Shown: one piece after another, positions 28,781-60,833 of the stretch
How the letters are laid out: each line of letters begins with the position of its first letter
Numbering within the stretch: the first letter of the stretch is position 1
NCBI RefSeq assembly: GCF_002159735.1
Contig: NZ_NFJF01000002.1
Coordinates: forward strand, 310,001 to 374,000
DNA: 64,000 nucleotides
Source of the DNA: Olsenella sp. An270
GTDB taxonomy: Bacteria; Actinomycetota; Coriobacteriia; Coriobacteriales; Atopobiaceae
Reading direction: 5' to 3'
Made by a program: the position numbers and the translations under genes
Notes under the pieces: model-generated
What the model saw: the letters and a program-made list of their open reading frames with translations, nothing else
Told to the model about the DNA's origin: nothing
Databases searched by the model: none

Positions 28781-30439
28781 ATGACCAAGTCCCGAACCAT
28801 CACCCGTCGCGACGCCCTGGCCTGCTCCACCCTCGCCGCCGGCGCCGTCGCCCTTGCGGGCGCCACCCCCGCCGGCGCGGAGGAGCCTGGGAGCGTCCTG
28901 TCCGCCGACGTCGTCGACTACCTCTACATCGACAGCGCCTCGCTCGGCTTTGGTGAGGAGCAGCACGTCGTCGCCGCCCTGAGGGACCGCTCCGGCTTCA
29001 GCGCCGCGACGCTCTCCCTGCTCAACGTCGACACGGGGGCACAGCGTGACGTCGCACTCTCCAAGACGGTCGACAACACGCTGCTCTTCTCGCTCAACGT
29101 TGACGGCGAGGGCACCTACTACGTCCAGACGCTCTCCCTCACGGACGCCTCCGGCTCCCTCGTCGTGGACTTCTCCGACGCCGACGCCTCCGTCCGCTCC
29201 TTCGAGGTGAGCGCCGCCTCCGCCGCGCCCATGCTGCTGAACGCGGACGGCGCCGATGAGGACGTCGCGTTCGAGGTGTACGGCTCCGACTCCGAGGGCG
29301 AGCTGGTGAGCGCCGCATCGATTGAGGACGCCGCGGCCGTGGCCGTCTCCTCCGTGGACGCCGAGCCCCAGGCGCGGGGCACGGGCGTCGTGGTGGCGCT
29401 CGACCCCGGCCACGTGGGCGCCAGCTCCGGAGCCTCCGGCAACGGCCTGCGCGAGGAGGAGATCACCTGGAAGATCGCCCAGTACTGCCGCTCGGAGCTC
29501 GACACCTACGAGGGCGTCTCATCCTTCTTCACGGTGACGCCGAGCGAGAGCATCGGCACGGGCAGGACCGAGCTCAAGACCCGCGTGAGCAGGGCAAAGA
29601 GCGGCGGTGCCGACGTGCTGGTGAGCCTGCACATCAACTCGACCGGCAACGGCAGCGCCTATGGCGCGGAGGTCTACTACCCCTACAACGGGAGCTACAA
29701 CAACTCCACGCACGCCGTCGGCAAGGCCCTCGCCGACAAGATCGTCGTCCAGCTGGAGGCCCTCGGCCTCTACAACCGCGGGACCAAGATCAGGGTCATC
29801 AACGGCGACGACGACTATGCCTATGCGGACGGCAGCGATGGCGACTACTACGGCATCATCCGCTACGCGCGCCAGGAGAACCTGCCCGCCATCATCGTGG
29901 AGCACGCCTTCATCGACAACAGGAGCGACGCCGCCAACTTCCTGAACTCGCCCGAGAAGCTCAGGCGGCTCGGCGTGGCGGACGCTGCGGGCATCGCCAA
30001 CTACTTCGGCCTCTCCAAGGCCGGGGCCTCCGACGGCACGATGTACCGCCTCTACAACCCCAACAGCGGCGAGCACTTCTACACCGCGAGCTCCGGCGAG
30101 CGGGACAACCTGATCGCGGCGGGCTGGAACTACGAGGGCGTGGGCTGGACGGCCCCGACGAGCTCGAACACCCCGGTCTACCGCCTCTACAACCCCAACG
30201 CCGGGGACCACCACTACACCACGAGCGACTACGAGCGCGACAGCCTGGTCAAGGCCGGCTGGCGCTACGAGGGCGTCGGCTGGTACTCCGACGACGCGAA
30301 GTCCGTCCCCCTCTACCGTCAGTACAACCCCAACGCGCGGTCCGGCACGCACAACTACACCACGAGTACCTACGAGCGCGACAGCCTGATCAAGGCGGGC
30401 TGGCGCGACGAGGGCATCGGCTGGTACGCCCTCTCGTAG
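28781..30439 (+). CDS. secreted N-acetylmuramoyl-L-alanine amidase (Amidase_3) with three DUF5648-type repeats
   Basis: A 552-residue exported wall hydrolase. The first 36 residues carry a twin-arginine-like signal (TITRRDALA then a hydrophobic run to PAGA), so Tat export is likely. An unassigned beta-rich domain follows (about 40-195). Amidase_3 lies at about 200-415 with the zinc ligands in LDPGHVG, LREEEI and VSLHINS and the catalytic Glu in IIVEHAFIDN. The last 140 residues are three repeats of the YRLYNPNSGEHFYTAS...GWxYEGVGW type, presumed wall-binding. The same module appears in the next two genes. Confidence 0.9.
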   Translation: MTKSRTITRRDALACSTLAAGAVALAGATPAGAEEPGSVLSADVVDYLYIDSASLGFGEEQHVVAALRDRSGFSAATLSLLNVDTGAQRDVALSKTVDNTLLFSLNVDGEGTYYVQTLSLTDASGSLVVDFSDADASVRSFEVSAASAAPMLLNADGADEDVAFEVYGSDSEGELVSAASIEDAAAVAVSSVDAEPQARGTGVVVALDPGHVGASSGASGNGLREEEITWKIAQYCRSELDTYEGVSSFFTVTPSESIGTGRTELKTRVSRAKSGGADVLVSLHINSTGNGSAYGAEVYYPYNGSYNNSTHAVGKALADKIVVQLEALGLYNRGTKIRVINGDDDYAYADGSDGDYYGIIRYARQENLPAIIVEHAFIDNRSDAANFLNSPEKLRRLGVADAAGIANYFGLSKAGASDGTMYRLYNPNSGEHFYTASSGERDNLIAAGWNYEGVGWTAPTSSNTPVYRLYNPNAGDHHYTTSDYERDSLVKAGWRYEGVGWYSDDAKSVPLYRQYNPNARSGTHNYTTSTYERDSLIKAGWRDEGIGWYALS

Positions 30440-35692: not shown

Positions 35693-35725
35693 GCGTGGCT
35701 GCGTCCTTCTCGCCCGTGCCACCTT

Positions 35726-35797
35726 CGCCGAGACAGAGAAACGGCACAGAATCGCGCATTTTGGAGGCCGATTCTGTGCCGATTCTCTGTTTCGGCG
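35726..35797. repeat. Family A hairpin element (copy A2)
   Basis: Arms of 29 bp (35726-35754 and 35769-35797) pair with two mismatches around a 14-nt loop. The core is CAGAGAAACGGCACAGAATCG. It lies between the cspA terminator and the marR promoter, with GTCCTTCTCGCCCG at 35703-35716 on its left. Confidence 0.8.
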
Positions 35798-39978: not shown

Positions 39979-39982
39979 CGCC

Positions 39983-40072
39983 GCCGCCCTTCTCGCCCGC
40001 GCCGCCCTTCTCGCCCGCGCTGTCCTTCTCGCCCGCGCTGCCCTTCTCGCCCGCGCTGTCCTTCTCGGCCAA
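39983..40072. repeat. five tandem 18-bp units containing CCTTCTCGCCCGC
   Basis: Five direct copies, each exactly 18 bp, with consensus GCYGYCCTTCTCGCCCGC, start 4 bp after the ABC gene stop. The last copy is diverged. The unit contains the GTCCTTCTCGCCCG motif that borders other intergenic elements in the window, and family A copy A3 follows directly. Confidence 0.85.
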
Positions 40073-40083
40073 CCGCGCCCAAA

Positions 40084-40139
40084 CAGAGAAACGGCACAGA
40101 ATCGGCCCTCCAAGAGGCTGGTTTTGTGTCGTTTCTCTG
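40084..40139. repeat. Family A hairpin element (copy A3)
   Basis: Arms of 20 bp (40084-40103 and 40120-40139) pair with three mismatches around a 16-nt loop; the core is the same as in A2 and A4. The remainder of the 310-bp gap to 40288 is AT-richer (40195-40260) and probably holds the promoter of the next gene, though no clear boxes were found. Confidence 0.78.
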
Positions 40140-41347: not shown

Positions 41348-41349
41348 GG

Positions 41350-41459
41350 TTCTTCTCGCTTGCCAACATCGCCCAAACAGAGAATCGGCACAGAACGAGC
41401 CGTCTGAGAGGCTGATTCTGTGCCGATTCTCTGTTTGGGCGATGTTGGCCCGAGAAGAA
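41350..41459. repeat. Family A hairpin element (copy A4), very long stem
   Basis: Arms at 41350-41400 and 41411-41459 form a stem of about 48 bp with only a few mismatches and one bulge around a 10-nt loop. The outer part is TTCTTCTCG, the middle GCCAACATCGCCCAAACAGAG, the inner part the family core. It sits between two convergent genes, and GCGGGCGAGAAGGACG follows at once. Confidence 0.85.
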
Positions 41460-49043: not shown

Positions 49044-49267
49044 CCTTCTCGCCCGGCGCTTTCCGCGATTTGCCGCCCTTGTCCTTCTCGGCCCTAGAAA
49101 GTCGTGCCCTTGTACGGCAGCGACGGCCCCGGGGCGTACAACGCCGAGAATTTCTAGAAGATCTTGCGACAAGGTCGTCGATTCCTAGAGGCGCAGGTGA
49201 CAAGGACAACGATTCCTAGGGGCGGGGACGACAAGGGCCGCGTTTTCTAGAACCGCGGGCGACAAGG
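49044..49267. repeat. Bipolar array of 31-bp units (array B1)
   Basis: The core CCTTSTC occurs forward at 49044, 49077 and 49108, then a GGCCCCGGGGCG centre follows, then the reversed core GACAAGG (first copy TACAACG) at 49137, 49168, 49199, 49230 and 49261. After the first step (33 bp) the steps within each arm are 31 bp. Between cores each unit carries a TTCTAGRAAT-type stretch. It fills most of the 393-bp gap between coaD and the next gene. From 49268 to 49430 only a possible extended -10 box (TGC-TACTAT, 49368-49373) is seen. Confidence 0.88.
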
Positions 49268-49430
49268 ACGGCGATTCCCGGAGCCCGCCGCCACGCCCGC
49301 CGACGCGAAACCGCCACAACCTGCGGTGGCCCCCGGCTGCGCCTTTATCATCAGGCGCGCAATCTGCTACTATGGCCTTTGATGGAGCCACTGCGCCCAC
49401 CACCGATGAGTCACGCGAAAGGAACCATAG

Positions 49431-50844: not shown

Positions 50845-50874
50845 GGGGTCGGGCCTTCGGGTCCGGCCCCTTTT
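50845..50874 (+). terminator. Rho-independent terminator after rpmF
   Basis: Stem GGGGTCGGGCC with GGTCCGGCCCC-type partner (50845-50870), loop TTC, followed by TTTT. The sequence after it (TTTTGCGTG) is the same as after the cspA terminator. Confidence 0.87.
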
Positions 50875-50888
50875 GCGTGCGGCGGCGT

Positions 50889-51267
50889 CCTTGTCGCCCG
50901 GCGTTCCGGGAATCGCCGCCCTTGTCCGGTTGGGCTCTAGAAAATGCCGCCCTTGTCCGAGGTTCTTCTAGGAATGCGCGCCCTTGTCCGAACCCCTTCT
51001 AAAGATTGCCTCCCTTGTCCGGCAGCCTTCTAGGAATCGCCGCCCTTGTCCGAGCTAGCGCTGATTTGGCCGGACAAGGGCTTGCAATTCTAGACGTCGG
51101 GATGACAAAGGCGGCGATTTTCGGAAGGGGCACAGGCAAGGGCGGCAATTCTTAGACGCGGCCCGGACAATGACGGCGATTTTCGGAAGGGGCACAGGCA
51201 AGGGCAGCAATTCTTAGACGCGGCGCAGACAAGGGCCGTGATTCGTAGAACGGCGCGGGCGAGAAGG
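50889..51267. repeat. Bipolar array of 31-bp units (array B2), six forward and six reversed
   Basis: CCTTGTC begins at 50889, 50920, 50951, 50982, 51013 and 51044, exactly every 31 bp. After a 22-bp centre (51051-51072) the reversed core GACAAGG or a close variant begins at 51073, 51104, 51135, 51166, 51197 and 51228, again every 31 bp. A last diverged copy, GAGAAGG, is at 51261. Unit consensus: CCTTGTCCG, about 6 variable bases, TTCTAGRAAT, CGCCGC. The reversed half contains a near-identical 62-bp dimer (51111-51172 and 51173-51234). No gene is seen from 50822 to 51328. Confidence 0.93.
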
Positions 51268-51328: not shown

Positions 51329-52318
51329 ATGACCACCATCTGCGTAGACGTCATGGGCGCCGACAAGGAGCCCGAGGTCCTTCTCGAGGGCGTGGCCCAG
51401 GCGCTCGCCGACGACCCCGAGCTCGAGGTGCTCGTCGCCGGCGCCGCCGAGGTGGTCGAGCCCTTCGCGGCCGCCCACGAGCGCGCCCGCGCCCTCGTGA
51501 CGACCGAGGTCATCACGATGTCCGAGCACCCAGCGAGCGCCGTGCGCCAGAAGAAGGACGCGAGCATCGTGCGCGCCGCCGCCGCCGTGCGCGCGGGCGA
51601 GGCCGACGGGCTCTTCTCGGCCGGCTCCACCGGCGCCGTGCTCACCGCCGCGACCTTTGGCGTGGGCCGCATCAAGGGGGTCAAGCGCCCCGCGCTCTCG
51701 CTGCCGTTCCCGGGCGTCTCCGGCAAGCCCACGGTCTTTCTCGACATGGGCGCCAATGCCGACGTCAAGCCCGACGTGCTGGTGCAGTTCGCCCACATGG
51801 GGCGTGCCTACTCGCGCGCGGTCCTGGGCGTGGCCGAGCCGCGCGTGGGCCTGCTCTGCAACGGCTCCGAGGACACCAAGGGCTCGGAGATGGCGCTCGC
51901 CTACCACGCCGCGCTCGAGGCGGGGGACTGCGGATTCGCCGGCAACGCGGAGGGCACCGACCTGCTCGCCGGCACCTTCGACGTCATCGTGGCGGACGGC
52001 TTCACCGGAAACGTTGCCCTCAAGTCGATCGAGGGCACGGGCAAGTTCGTCATCAAGCGCCTCAAGGCCGCGATGGAGGCGTCGCTTTCCAACAAGATCG
52101 GCATGGCCCTTCTCGCCAAGTCGCTCAAGTCGCTGGCCGCCGAGATGTCCGGCGACGAGTACGGCGGCGCCATCCTGCTGGGCCTGCGCGCCCCGGTCGT
52201 GAAGGGGCACGGCGCCACGAGCGCCCAGGCCGTCCGCAAGGGCACGCTCGCCGCCGCGGCGGCCGTCCGGGCCGGGCTCTGCGAGAAGATCGCCGACGCC
52301 TGCGAGATCGCCGGCTAG
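51329..52318 (+). CDS. plsX: phosphate acyltransferase PlsX
   Basis: A 329-residue soluble enzyme that converts acyl-ACP to acyl phosphate, the first step of the PlsX/PlsY route to phosphatidic acid. Family marks are VDVMGADKEP at the start, SAGSTGAVLTAA, DMGANADVKP, LLCNGSEDTKGSE, and VADGFTGNVALKSIEG. ATG 51329 follows AAAGGGGAG. The frame is open 16 codons upstream without a ribosome-binding site. It precedes acpP, as in many Gram-positives. fakA upstream feeds the same pathway with exogenous fatty acids. Confidence 0.96.
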   Translation: MTTICVDVMGADKEPEVLLEGVAQALADDPELEVLVAGAAEVVEPFAAAHERARALVTTEVITMSEHPASAVRQKKDASIVRAAAAVRAGEADGLFSAGSTGAVLTAATFGVGRIKGVKRPALSLPFPGVSGKPTVFLDMGANADVKPDVLVQFAHMGRAYSRAVLGVAEPRVGLLCNGSEDTKGSEMALAYHAALEAGDCGFAGNAEGTDLLAGTFDVIVADGFTGNVALKSIEGTGKFVIKRLKAAMEASLSNKIGMALLAKSLKSLAAEMSGDEYGGAILLGLRAPVVKGHGATSAQAVRKGTLAAAAAVRAGLCEKIADACEIAG

Positions 52319-52639: not shown

Positions 52640-53368
52640 TTGAAGATGCACCAGCGGGTGGCCGAGGCCGAGCGGGTCTGCGGCCACCACTTTGAGAACC
52701 AGGACCTGATCGTCTCGGCCCTCACGCACCCCTCGGCCGCCGAGGGGCGGCCCGTGTCGGCCTCCTACGAGCGCCTCGAGTTCCTGGGCGACTCCATCCT
52801 CGGCGCCATCGTGGCGACCGACCTCTTCGAGCGCTTCCCCGACATGGACGAGGGCGCGCTCACACAGGCCAAGATCAGCCTCGTCTCGGGCAAGATGCTC
52901 TCGAGCGTCGCCGCGCGCCTGGGCCTCGCGCCCCTCATCGTGATGGGCGAGTCCGAGCGCGGAACGGGGGAGCGCGGCATGCACTCCGCGCTCGAGAACG
53001 TCTACGAGGCGCTCGTGGGCGCCCTCTACCTGGACGCCGGCTACACGACGACGCACGAGTTCGTGCTCGCTACGCTCGGCCCGGAGGTCTCCCCGGCGCT
53101 CGCCGAGAAGCCCATCAGCCCCAAGTCGCGCCTGCAGGAGGTCACCCAGCGCGAGCTGCACTGCGGCCCGGAGTATAGGCTCGTCTCGGAGGAGGGGCCC
53201 GCGCACGACCCCACGTTCACGTCGGTCGTGCTCGTCGAGGGCCGGCGGATCGGCCGCGGCTCGGGGCCCTCGAAGAAGTCTTCTGAGAGCGCCGCCGCCG
53301 TCGACGCGCTCGTCCGCCTCGGCTACGCCGACGAGGGCGACTTCGACGGCGCCGGGACCACCAACTAG
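52640..53368 (+). CDS. rnc: ribonuclease III
   Basis: A 242-residue RNase III: catalytic domain (about 1-145) with the signature ERLEFLGDSILG and the downstream ENVYEALVGALYLD acidic site, then a double-stranded-RNA-binding domain (about 160-235: SPKSRLQEVTQ, GSGPSKKSSESAAAVDAL). It processes rRNA precursors and structured mRNAs. I place the start at TTG 52640 because GGGGGA lies 7-8 nt upstream. GTG 52625, right after the acpP stop, has no site, and ATG 52646 is possible. The long inverted arrays nearby could be natural substrates if transcribed. Confidence 0.94.
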   Translation: MKMHQRVAEAERVCGHHFENQDLIVSALTHPSAAEGRPVSASYERLEFLGDSILGAIVATDLFERFPDMDEGALTQAKISLVSGKMLSSVAARLGLAPLIVMGESERGTGERGMHSALENVYEALVGALYLDAGYTTTHEFVLATLGPEVSPALAEKPISPKSRLQEVTQRELHCGPEYRLVSEEGPAHDPTFTSVVLVEGRRIGRGSGPSKKSSESAAAVDALVRLGYADEGDFDGAGTTN

Positions 53369-60746: not shown

Positions 60747-60833
60747 GGTTTGGGTTCGAAAACATGGTGTCGGCGGTCAAGGGGTGCGATTCCTAGAAGA
60801 AACGAACCCAAACCGTTATTCGGTTTGGGTTCG
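60747..60833. repeat. Family C palindromic unit (copy C3)
   Basis: GGTTTGGGTTCG at 60747-60758 pairs with its complement at 60803-60814. A tight hairpin with the same 13-bp stem as in C2 follows (60803-60833, loop TTATT). Read on the minus strand it is followed by TTTCTTC and could terminate the L,D-transpeptidase transcript. Confidence 0.8.

Follow-up and report, generated by a model that had tools for sequence, protein, structure and literature searches.

Oriented, helically phased site arrays at gene ends in Olsenella sp. An270 and its relatives, with a tentative role as two-way transcription barriers

What might a bacterium gain from a repeat array that holds an exact 31-bp step and reverses its orientation once, at its centre? 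Such an array lies between rpmF and plsX in Olsenella sp. An270, at 50889..51266 of the 64,000-nt stretch of DNA analysed here (the window, to which coordinates refer unless a contig or locus is named). Delimited by sequence and profile scan, it comprises six forward cores, a central flip, six reverse cores and a right outer CTTCTCG-type half-site, and repeat-finding tools recovered it independently. An earlier note on this DNA had described six copies of CCTTGTC at a strict 31-bp step, and these are exact, at 50889, 50920, 50951, 50982, 51013 and 51044. The six reversed cores that it placed at the same step start at 51073, 51104, 51135, 51166, 51197 and 51228; two of them read exactly GACAAGG and four carry one mismatch (GACAAAG, GGCAAGG, GACAATG and GGCAAGG). 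The symmetry point, which the note set at 51061, was measured at ~51061.5. Beyond that description, we found a conserved second block, TCTAGGAAT, ahead of each core, and the array unit is tTCTAGGAATcgccGCCCTTGTC followed by ~8 free bases.

A profile built from all copies resolved a directional 31-bp unit consisting of block A (tTCTAGGAAT), a loose CGCC linker, block B (GcCCTTGTC) and ~8 nearly free bases. The outermost forward CCTTGTC core of the focal array, recognised by sequence (50889..50895, + strand), belongs to a partial unit. It is followed by five full forward units found by the profile scan (50904..51058, + strand; starts at 50904, 50935, 50966, 50997 and 51028), by a 22-bp central spacer between two head-to-head cores (51051..51072; unit starts 37 bp apart) and by six reverse units, also from the profile scan (51065..51250, - strand; starts at 51065, 51096, 51127, 51158, 51189 and 51220). 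The right-hand outer half-site, CGAGAAGG, was identified by sequence at 51259..51266 (- strand). Upstream lies rpmF, encoding 50S ribosomal protein L32 (50642..50821, + strand; NCBIfam TIGR01031), and downstream plsX (51329..52318, + strand; NCBIfam TIGR00182).

The focal array belongs to a large family. At ≤3 mismatches, the unit pattern had 105+101 matches in the host genome (G000; other G-numbers denote species of its genus, the Thermophilibacter group), versus 0+0 for the pattern read backwards, a control that excludes chance. From 408 kb of stretches around unit matches, at least 42 arrays were mapped; further G000 arrays lie beyond these stretches (for example G000:C10:189766, C11:142647 and C12:44129), and ~50 arrays in all are scattered around the chromosome. 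By the common rule, forward units at 31-bp steps lead to a single head-to-head flip, with 37 bp between unit starts, and then to a reverse run; a minority of arrays have a junction other than 37. The order is always forward then reverse, and reverse-to-forward neighbours occur only at three adjacent array pairs. Arms in G000 hold 1 to 6 units, their left and right lengths being uncorrelated (r = -0.06), and the largest arms in the family reach 13 sites. Within the window, the profile scan located a second array of two forward and five reverse units (49061..49283; junction 37), 23 bp after the coaD stop, and an isolated single unit (60768..60798, - strand).

Other repeats also occur in the window. 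A short intergenic repeat, approximately CAGAGAAACGGCACAGAATCGG, is found in at least three copies just after CTTCTCG motifs (35703-35770, 40058-40120 and 41349-41400); a 135-bp tandem repeat inside a gene (30044-30427) encodes YRLYNPNAGDHNYTTS-type repeats; and ~5 copies of an 18-bp tandem repeat, CGCTGCCCTTCTCGCCCG, lie between genes (39982-40067). The CTTCTCG signal was considered as a genus-wide ancestral element and rejected, being merely 1.1-1.5x enriched between genes.

The position of the arrays relative to genes is highly asymmetric. With gene calls made for this analysis from codon usage, no coding gene was predicted inside or across the arrays examined. The median distance from a gene 3′ end to the first full unit was 23 bp in G000 and 27 bp in G025, and 48 of the 71 gene ends facing arrays lay within 35 bp, versus none of the 60 facing gene starts (stop versus start asymmetry, p ~2e-8 and 4e-8). 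Several genes take their stop codon from the CTAG of the first unit. Five convergent pairs in G000 and three in G025 have both stops ≤30 bp from an array that fills nearly the whole gap. The neighbouring genes sampled were varied (coaD, DNA polymerase IV, glnA, dGTPase, transporters) and had no functional bias. A crude intrinsic-terminator scan, which detects few terminators anywhere, scored 4 of 28 array-adjacent 3′ ends versus 22 of 120 others, with no significant depletion. The focal array is less typical in this respect: it is preceded by the ordinary intrinsic terminator of rpmF, a GC hairpin followed by TTTT, recognised by sequence at 50845..50874 (+ strand), and is therefore not needed to end rpmF.

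Are these arrays peculiar to one chromosome? Our survey covered 31 genomes of the genus, several of the compared genomes being incomplete bins, and its unit detection depends on profile thresholds. Among the 31, G003 (Olsenella uli An820), G014 (a CASEQJ metagenome bin) and G023 (Atopobium sp. UBA1382) had unit numbers similar to those of G000 and the same array geometry, and nearly all of their placeable arrays were at spots orthologous to those of G000, in flanking DNA ~85-95% identical. All four carry an array in the rpmF-plsX slot. The earlier note had held that absence of an array from the same place in close relatives would count against function, and that conserved phasing in other species would support it; G003, G014 and G023 each have an array there, and their arrays keep the same geometry.

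In the other species examined, the rpmF-plsX slot holds unrelated inverted repeats or short gaps. Across loci L137-L164 it is a hotspot for repeats, with for example ATAACACGCAGAATTACC...GATTCTGCGTGTTAT in G001, G010 and G027 and GAGCATGCC-type repeats in G011 and G022 (Thermophilibacter provencensis); in the gap of G029 (L152), repeats GTTAGGAATCGCGGCATGTTTGG resemble a third, more distant relative of the unit with longer steps. A contig filed under 'Collinsella' (CASEEY010000155.1, L104) shares its array with Atopobium sp. UBA1382 (L107); it resembles a duplicate of a UBA1382 contig and is probably bin contamination. The close species G024, G001, G010 and G027 have few or no arrays, from which it follows that array function is dispensable or replaced there. 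A tree of the PlsX region does not resolve whether the array-bearing species form one clade.

A two-unit profile search revealed diverged arrays, which we call type 2, in G025, G004, G006 and G013. The type 2 profile counted ~152 units in G025, ~130 in its sister species G004, 20 in G006 and 11 in G013. Their core is GTCCCGGAATCGgCGACCTTCTC, reading CCTTCTC where type 1 reads CCTTGTC, and their steps are 41 bp in 164 of 188 cases and 31 bp in 21 of 188, with junctions of 37, 16, 26-27 or 47. These arrays also run forward, flip and reverse, and are also located after stop codons. When 34 type 2 arrays were tested against G000, 18 had flanks inside the G000 stretches, and 14 of these 18 adjoin a G000 array. 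At one site shared by the two types, the junction is 37 in G000 and G023, 27 in G006 and 16 in G025, and the place of the second window array (49061..49283) is occupied by type 1 in G003, G014 and G023 and by type 2 in G025.

The distances between units are tightly controlled, the two main steps amounting to about three (31 bp) and four (41 bp) turns of the helix. Type 1 same-arm steps were exactly 31 in 469 of 489 cases, and type 1 junctions exactly 37 in 60 of 81, with 13 more about one unit longer (67-69). We collected 29 off-standard distances (41, 20, 58, 26 and 27 for type 1; 31, 16, 26 and 47 for type 2, the latter from G025 only), and 28 of them fell within 1 bp of a 10.5-bp lattice, the single outlier being 34; the formal p of ~3e-11 treats the events as independent, though they are only partly so. 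Type 1 events alone gave 9 of 10 on the lattice. DNA helical phase is thus conserved in the arrays, and the lattice is the strongest evidence for reading the array as double-stranded DNA on one face. The earlier proposal that a DNA-binding protein would meet every core on the same face is strongly supported for a predicted protein, because even the exceptions fall on the 10.5-bp lattice.

We compared orthologous units, defined as those in the same slot with the same index from the centre. Free bases were identical to G000 at 53% (G023), 45% (G014) and 30% (G003), against 33% for random pairs, a level so near to random that they are nearly saturated; conserved motif bases were ~78-80% identical and indels were nearly absent. 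Neutral indels should have destroyed the spacing over the time in which free bases approached saturation, yet steps and junctions are kept. Within arrays, free-base identity was 0.43 for adjacent units and 0.38 for random ones, and with neighbours barely more alike than random units, homogenisation does not maintain the pattern. The same numbers bear on neutral tandem-repeat growth by slippage from an inverted seed site, an account to which a few identical neighbouring units (G000:C7:120-188 and C8:193881-193948) and a 62-bp duplication in the right arm of the focal array lend some colour. It is nonetheless highly improbable, with free bases nearly random even between adjacent units and the step length kept far longer than neutral indels would allow. 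Spacing is held across species as the free bases randomise, which strongly favours selection on phase over slippage, as the earlier note had proposed.

The inverted layout also invites an explanation in RNA. The centre of the arrays is distinctive: TTGTA occurs in 31 of 118 innermost units versus 7 of 386 others, together with a preferred CGG extension, and TTGT(A/C)CGG as the innermost extension is special genome-wide. Bases 24-27 covary across the centre (p = 0.001, innermost pair). No compensatory change was found between mirror units 1-3; covariation is limited to the innermost four bases. A centre that covaries, flanked by mirror units that do not, points to a special dyad and not to a long hairpin under selection. 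Folded as RNA, the focal array is predicted to reach -205 kcal/mol (z = -8.9), a strength that follows from the inverted layout and is not evidence of function.

An RNA element, in which transcribed arrays fold into long 3′-UTR hairpins that serve as an RNase III substrate, an mRNA stabiliser or an unusual terminator, would nevertheless accommodate this fold, the central covariation and the position just after stop codons. We consider it improbable, because covariation is missing away from the centre, arm lengths in G000 are uncorrelated, and a hairpin has no need of exact 31- or 41-bp steps or of a 10.5-bp lattice. A-form RNA has ~11 bp per turn. The earlier suggestion of a stem of about 170 bp cut by RNase III is not supported, on the first two of these grounds, the arms being unequal as well. 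The same suggestion pointed to the nearby rnc, the RNase III gene (52646..53368, + strand; NCBIfam TIGR02191); with dozens of arrays situated elsewhere, its proximity is probably accidental, and no link between rnc and the focal array was found. An Rfam scan of the window gave no match above gathering score.

We also considered how arrays come and go. G022 has just two, at both ends of a 6.6-kb segment of PTS/SIS/GntR genes that is 97.9% identical to G000 (L086 5557-12178 versus L075 6053-12673), where the adjacent mfd is only 87% identical; on these identities, the segment reads as a recent exchange with an array at either border. G025 (L286) lacks ~5 kb that G000 carries between two arrays (L079), and G004 (L301; also in comparison with L069) lacks ~4 kb that its sister G025 carries between two arrays (L278/L279). 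In both cases a single array is left, through apparent recombination between arrays. Two convergent genes with a 4-bp overlap in G000 (L069 360-380) are held apart in G025 by an array (L278 1431-1559) that has a short, imperfect CCCGCGCG duplication on its flanks, a hint that arrays can be inserted. Arrays are found at the borders of gene cassettes that species have exchanged or lost.

These three cassettes and the split pair, along with the unrelated palindromic repeats that fill the same slots in other species, could suit a mobile or recombination element: repeats that are non-autonomous, or sites of a recombinase, would have spread to the ends of genes and come to act as places where cassettes are exchanged. 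We judge this quite unlikely as an explanation of the arrays. Their positions are conserved over roughly 10% gene divergence, they have no linked transposase, the unit had no match in phage, plasmid or viral collections, and mobility alone leaves unexplained why phase is conserved where free bases are randomised. An origin from RAYT/REPIN elements was examined and rejected: RAYT-like Y1 transposase genes are widespread in the genus (28 of 31 members, 1-6 each) and unlinked to arrays. G000 has no PF01797 match at E ≤ 0.001, and no array units lie near those RAYT loci that were inspected in G003, G014 and G023. The RAYT literature centres on proteobacteria.

Collectively, these are selected, oriented, helically phased site arrays with a special centre, placed at gene ends, whose motif and step are lineage-specific. 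Each is very probably a phased binding array for a putative protein. As to what the binding might achieve, we tentatively favour a role as a two-way transcription barrier at gene 3′ ends, a reading to which we give not quite an even chance. Stated in full, and with the same reserve, the array would be a cis-acting cluster of sites for a putative sequence-specific DNA-binding protein and would act as a two-way polar barrier. From a nucleus at the dyad centre, the protein would spread cooperatively on a single face of the DNA until both arms are filled. A polymerase arriving from either side would meet the sites in the same orientation, which would explain both the single flip and the unequal arms and would make a filled array a polar barrier in both directions. 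Such an array may end or insulate transcription and separate neighbouring units, notably convergent pairs for which it is the whole gap, and a changed putative binding protein would account for the way motif and step shift together from lineage to lineage.

Helical phasing, placement at gene 3′ ends and between convergent genes, distribution around the chromosome and a sample of flanking genes without functional bias would all be shared by a topological or nucleoid element, in which phased arrays bind a nucleoid protein or a gyrase-like wrapper and absorb supercoils or set domain borders, a role proposed for some BIMEs, without being terminators. We regard that alternative as unlikely, given that neither a sequence motif that shifts from CCTTGTC to CCTTCTC between sister lineages nor a strictly polar layout with one flip would be needed by a universal wrapping enzyme. 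The two-way barrier remains our preferred reading. One candidate factor, a protein with an S1/CSD-TOTE domain encoded between two arrays (L081:5215-6498), was rejected for its patchy distribution, as it is missing in the array-bearing G003, G023 and G004. If a protein does read the arrays, this would give bacteria a new means of terminating or insulating transcription, or of organising the chromosome. The 31-bp CCTTGTC and 41-bp CCTTCTC arrays at the same loci would then amount to a natural experiment in how a protein and dozens of its sites change together.

How do the arrays compare with known systems? They are not a CRISPR, in which near-identical repeats alternate with unique spacers, as the earlier note had recognised: the repeats are degenerate, the free stretch is only ~8 nt, and the two halves are inverted head to head. 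A replication origin is implausible, with some 50 copies per genome. The note had likewise set them apart from BIMEs, which are bound by several proteins and have suggested roles in chromosome organisation and transcription termination (PMC2817692). The likeness to BIME/REP sequences is considerable, both being extragenic, present in many copies, clustered, regularly spaced, found in both orientations and near gene 3′ ends. REP units, however, are imperfect palindromes of 20-40 bp with a head of the GT(A/G)G type, whereas the array unit is directional, non-palindromic and without a GTAG head; REP units alternate in orientation, whereas the arrays flip once; and REP sequences are tied to a RAYT flanked by the same repeats, whereas the arrays have no linked RAYT and show quantised helical spacing.

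REPINs are reportedly inverted pairs of short repeats spread through one genome, with species-specific sequence families. The arrays resemble them as inverted short repeats that are genome-wide and form species-specific families, but hold a fixed phase over arms of as many as 13 sites, are stable at orthologous places and occur in G000 where no RAYT was found. MIRU/VNTR loci likewise lie between genes as tandem units and differ in copy number from species to species; there, neighbouring units are nearly identical, whereas array units have diverged (adjacent and random units being almost equally alike), their halves are inverted and their phase is under selection. Arrays of 31-bp CTTGTC repeats in distant phyla, considered as possible relatives, proved to be plain VNTRs without the second block. 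A literature search limited to an open library, and hence not proof of absence, found no description of the arrays.

Plasmid centromere-like sites (parC/stb iteron arrays) and other iterons are oriented tandem protein sites in helical phase; the arrays differ from them in their dozens of chromosomal copies, their place at gene 3′ ends and their head-to-head flip. Sal boxes of TTF-I, which form eukaryotic polar terminator arrays, are oriented binding sites repeated immediately beyond the end of transcribed units. Here the analogy is one of mechanism only, as the arrays are bacterial, bidirectional and helically phased and their protein is putative. Among the classes compared, no described bacterial repeat keeps helically phased polar sites on both sides of a single flip at gene ends. 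It is possible, though we hold it doubtful, that the arrays constitute a chromosomal system of oriented, helically phased terminators or insulators, a bacterial counterpart of polar roadblock terminators. A dedicated putative protein would read them, and from one sister lineage to the other both its specificity and its step per subunit (three or four helical turns) would have shifted in concert with arrays throughout the chromosome.
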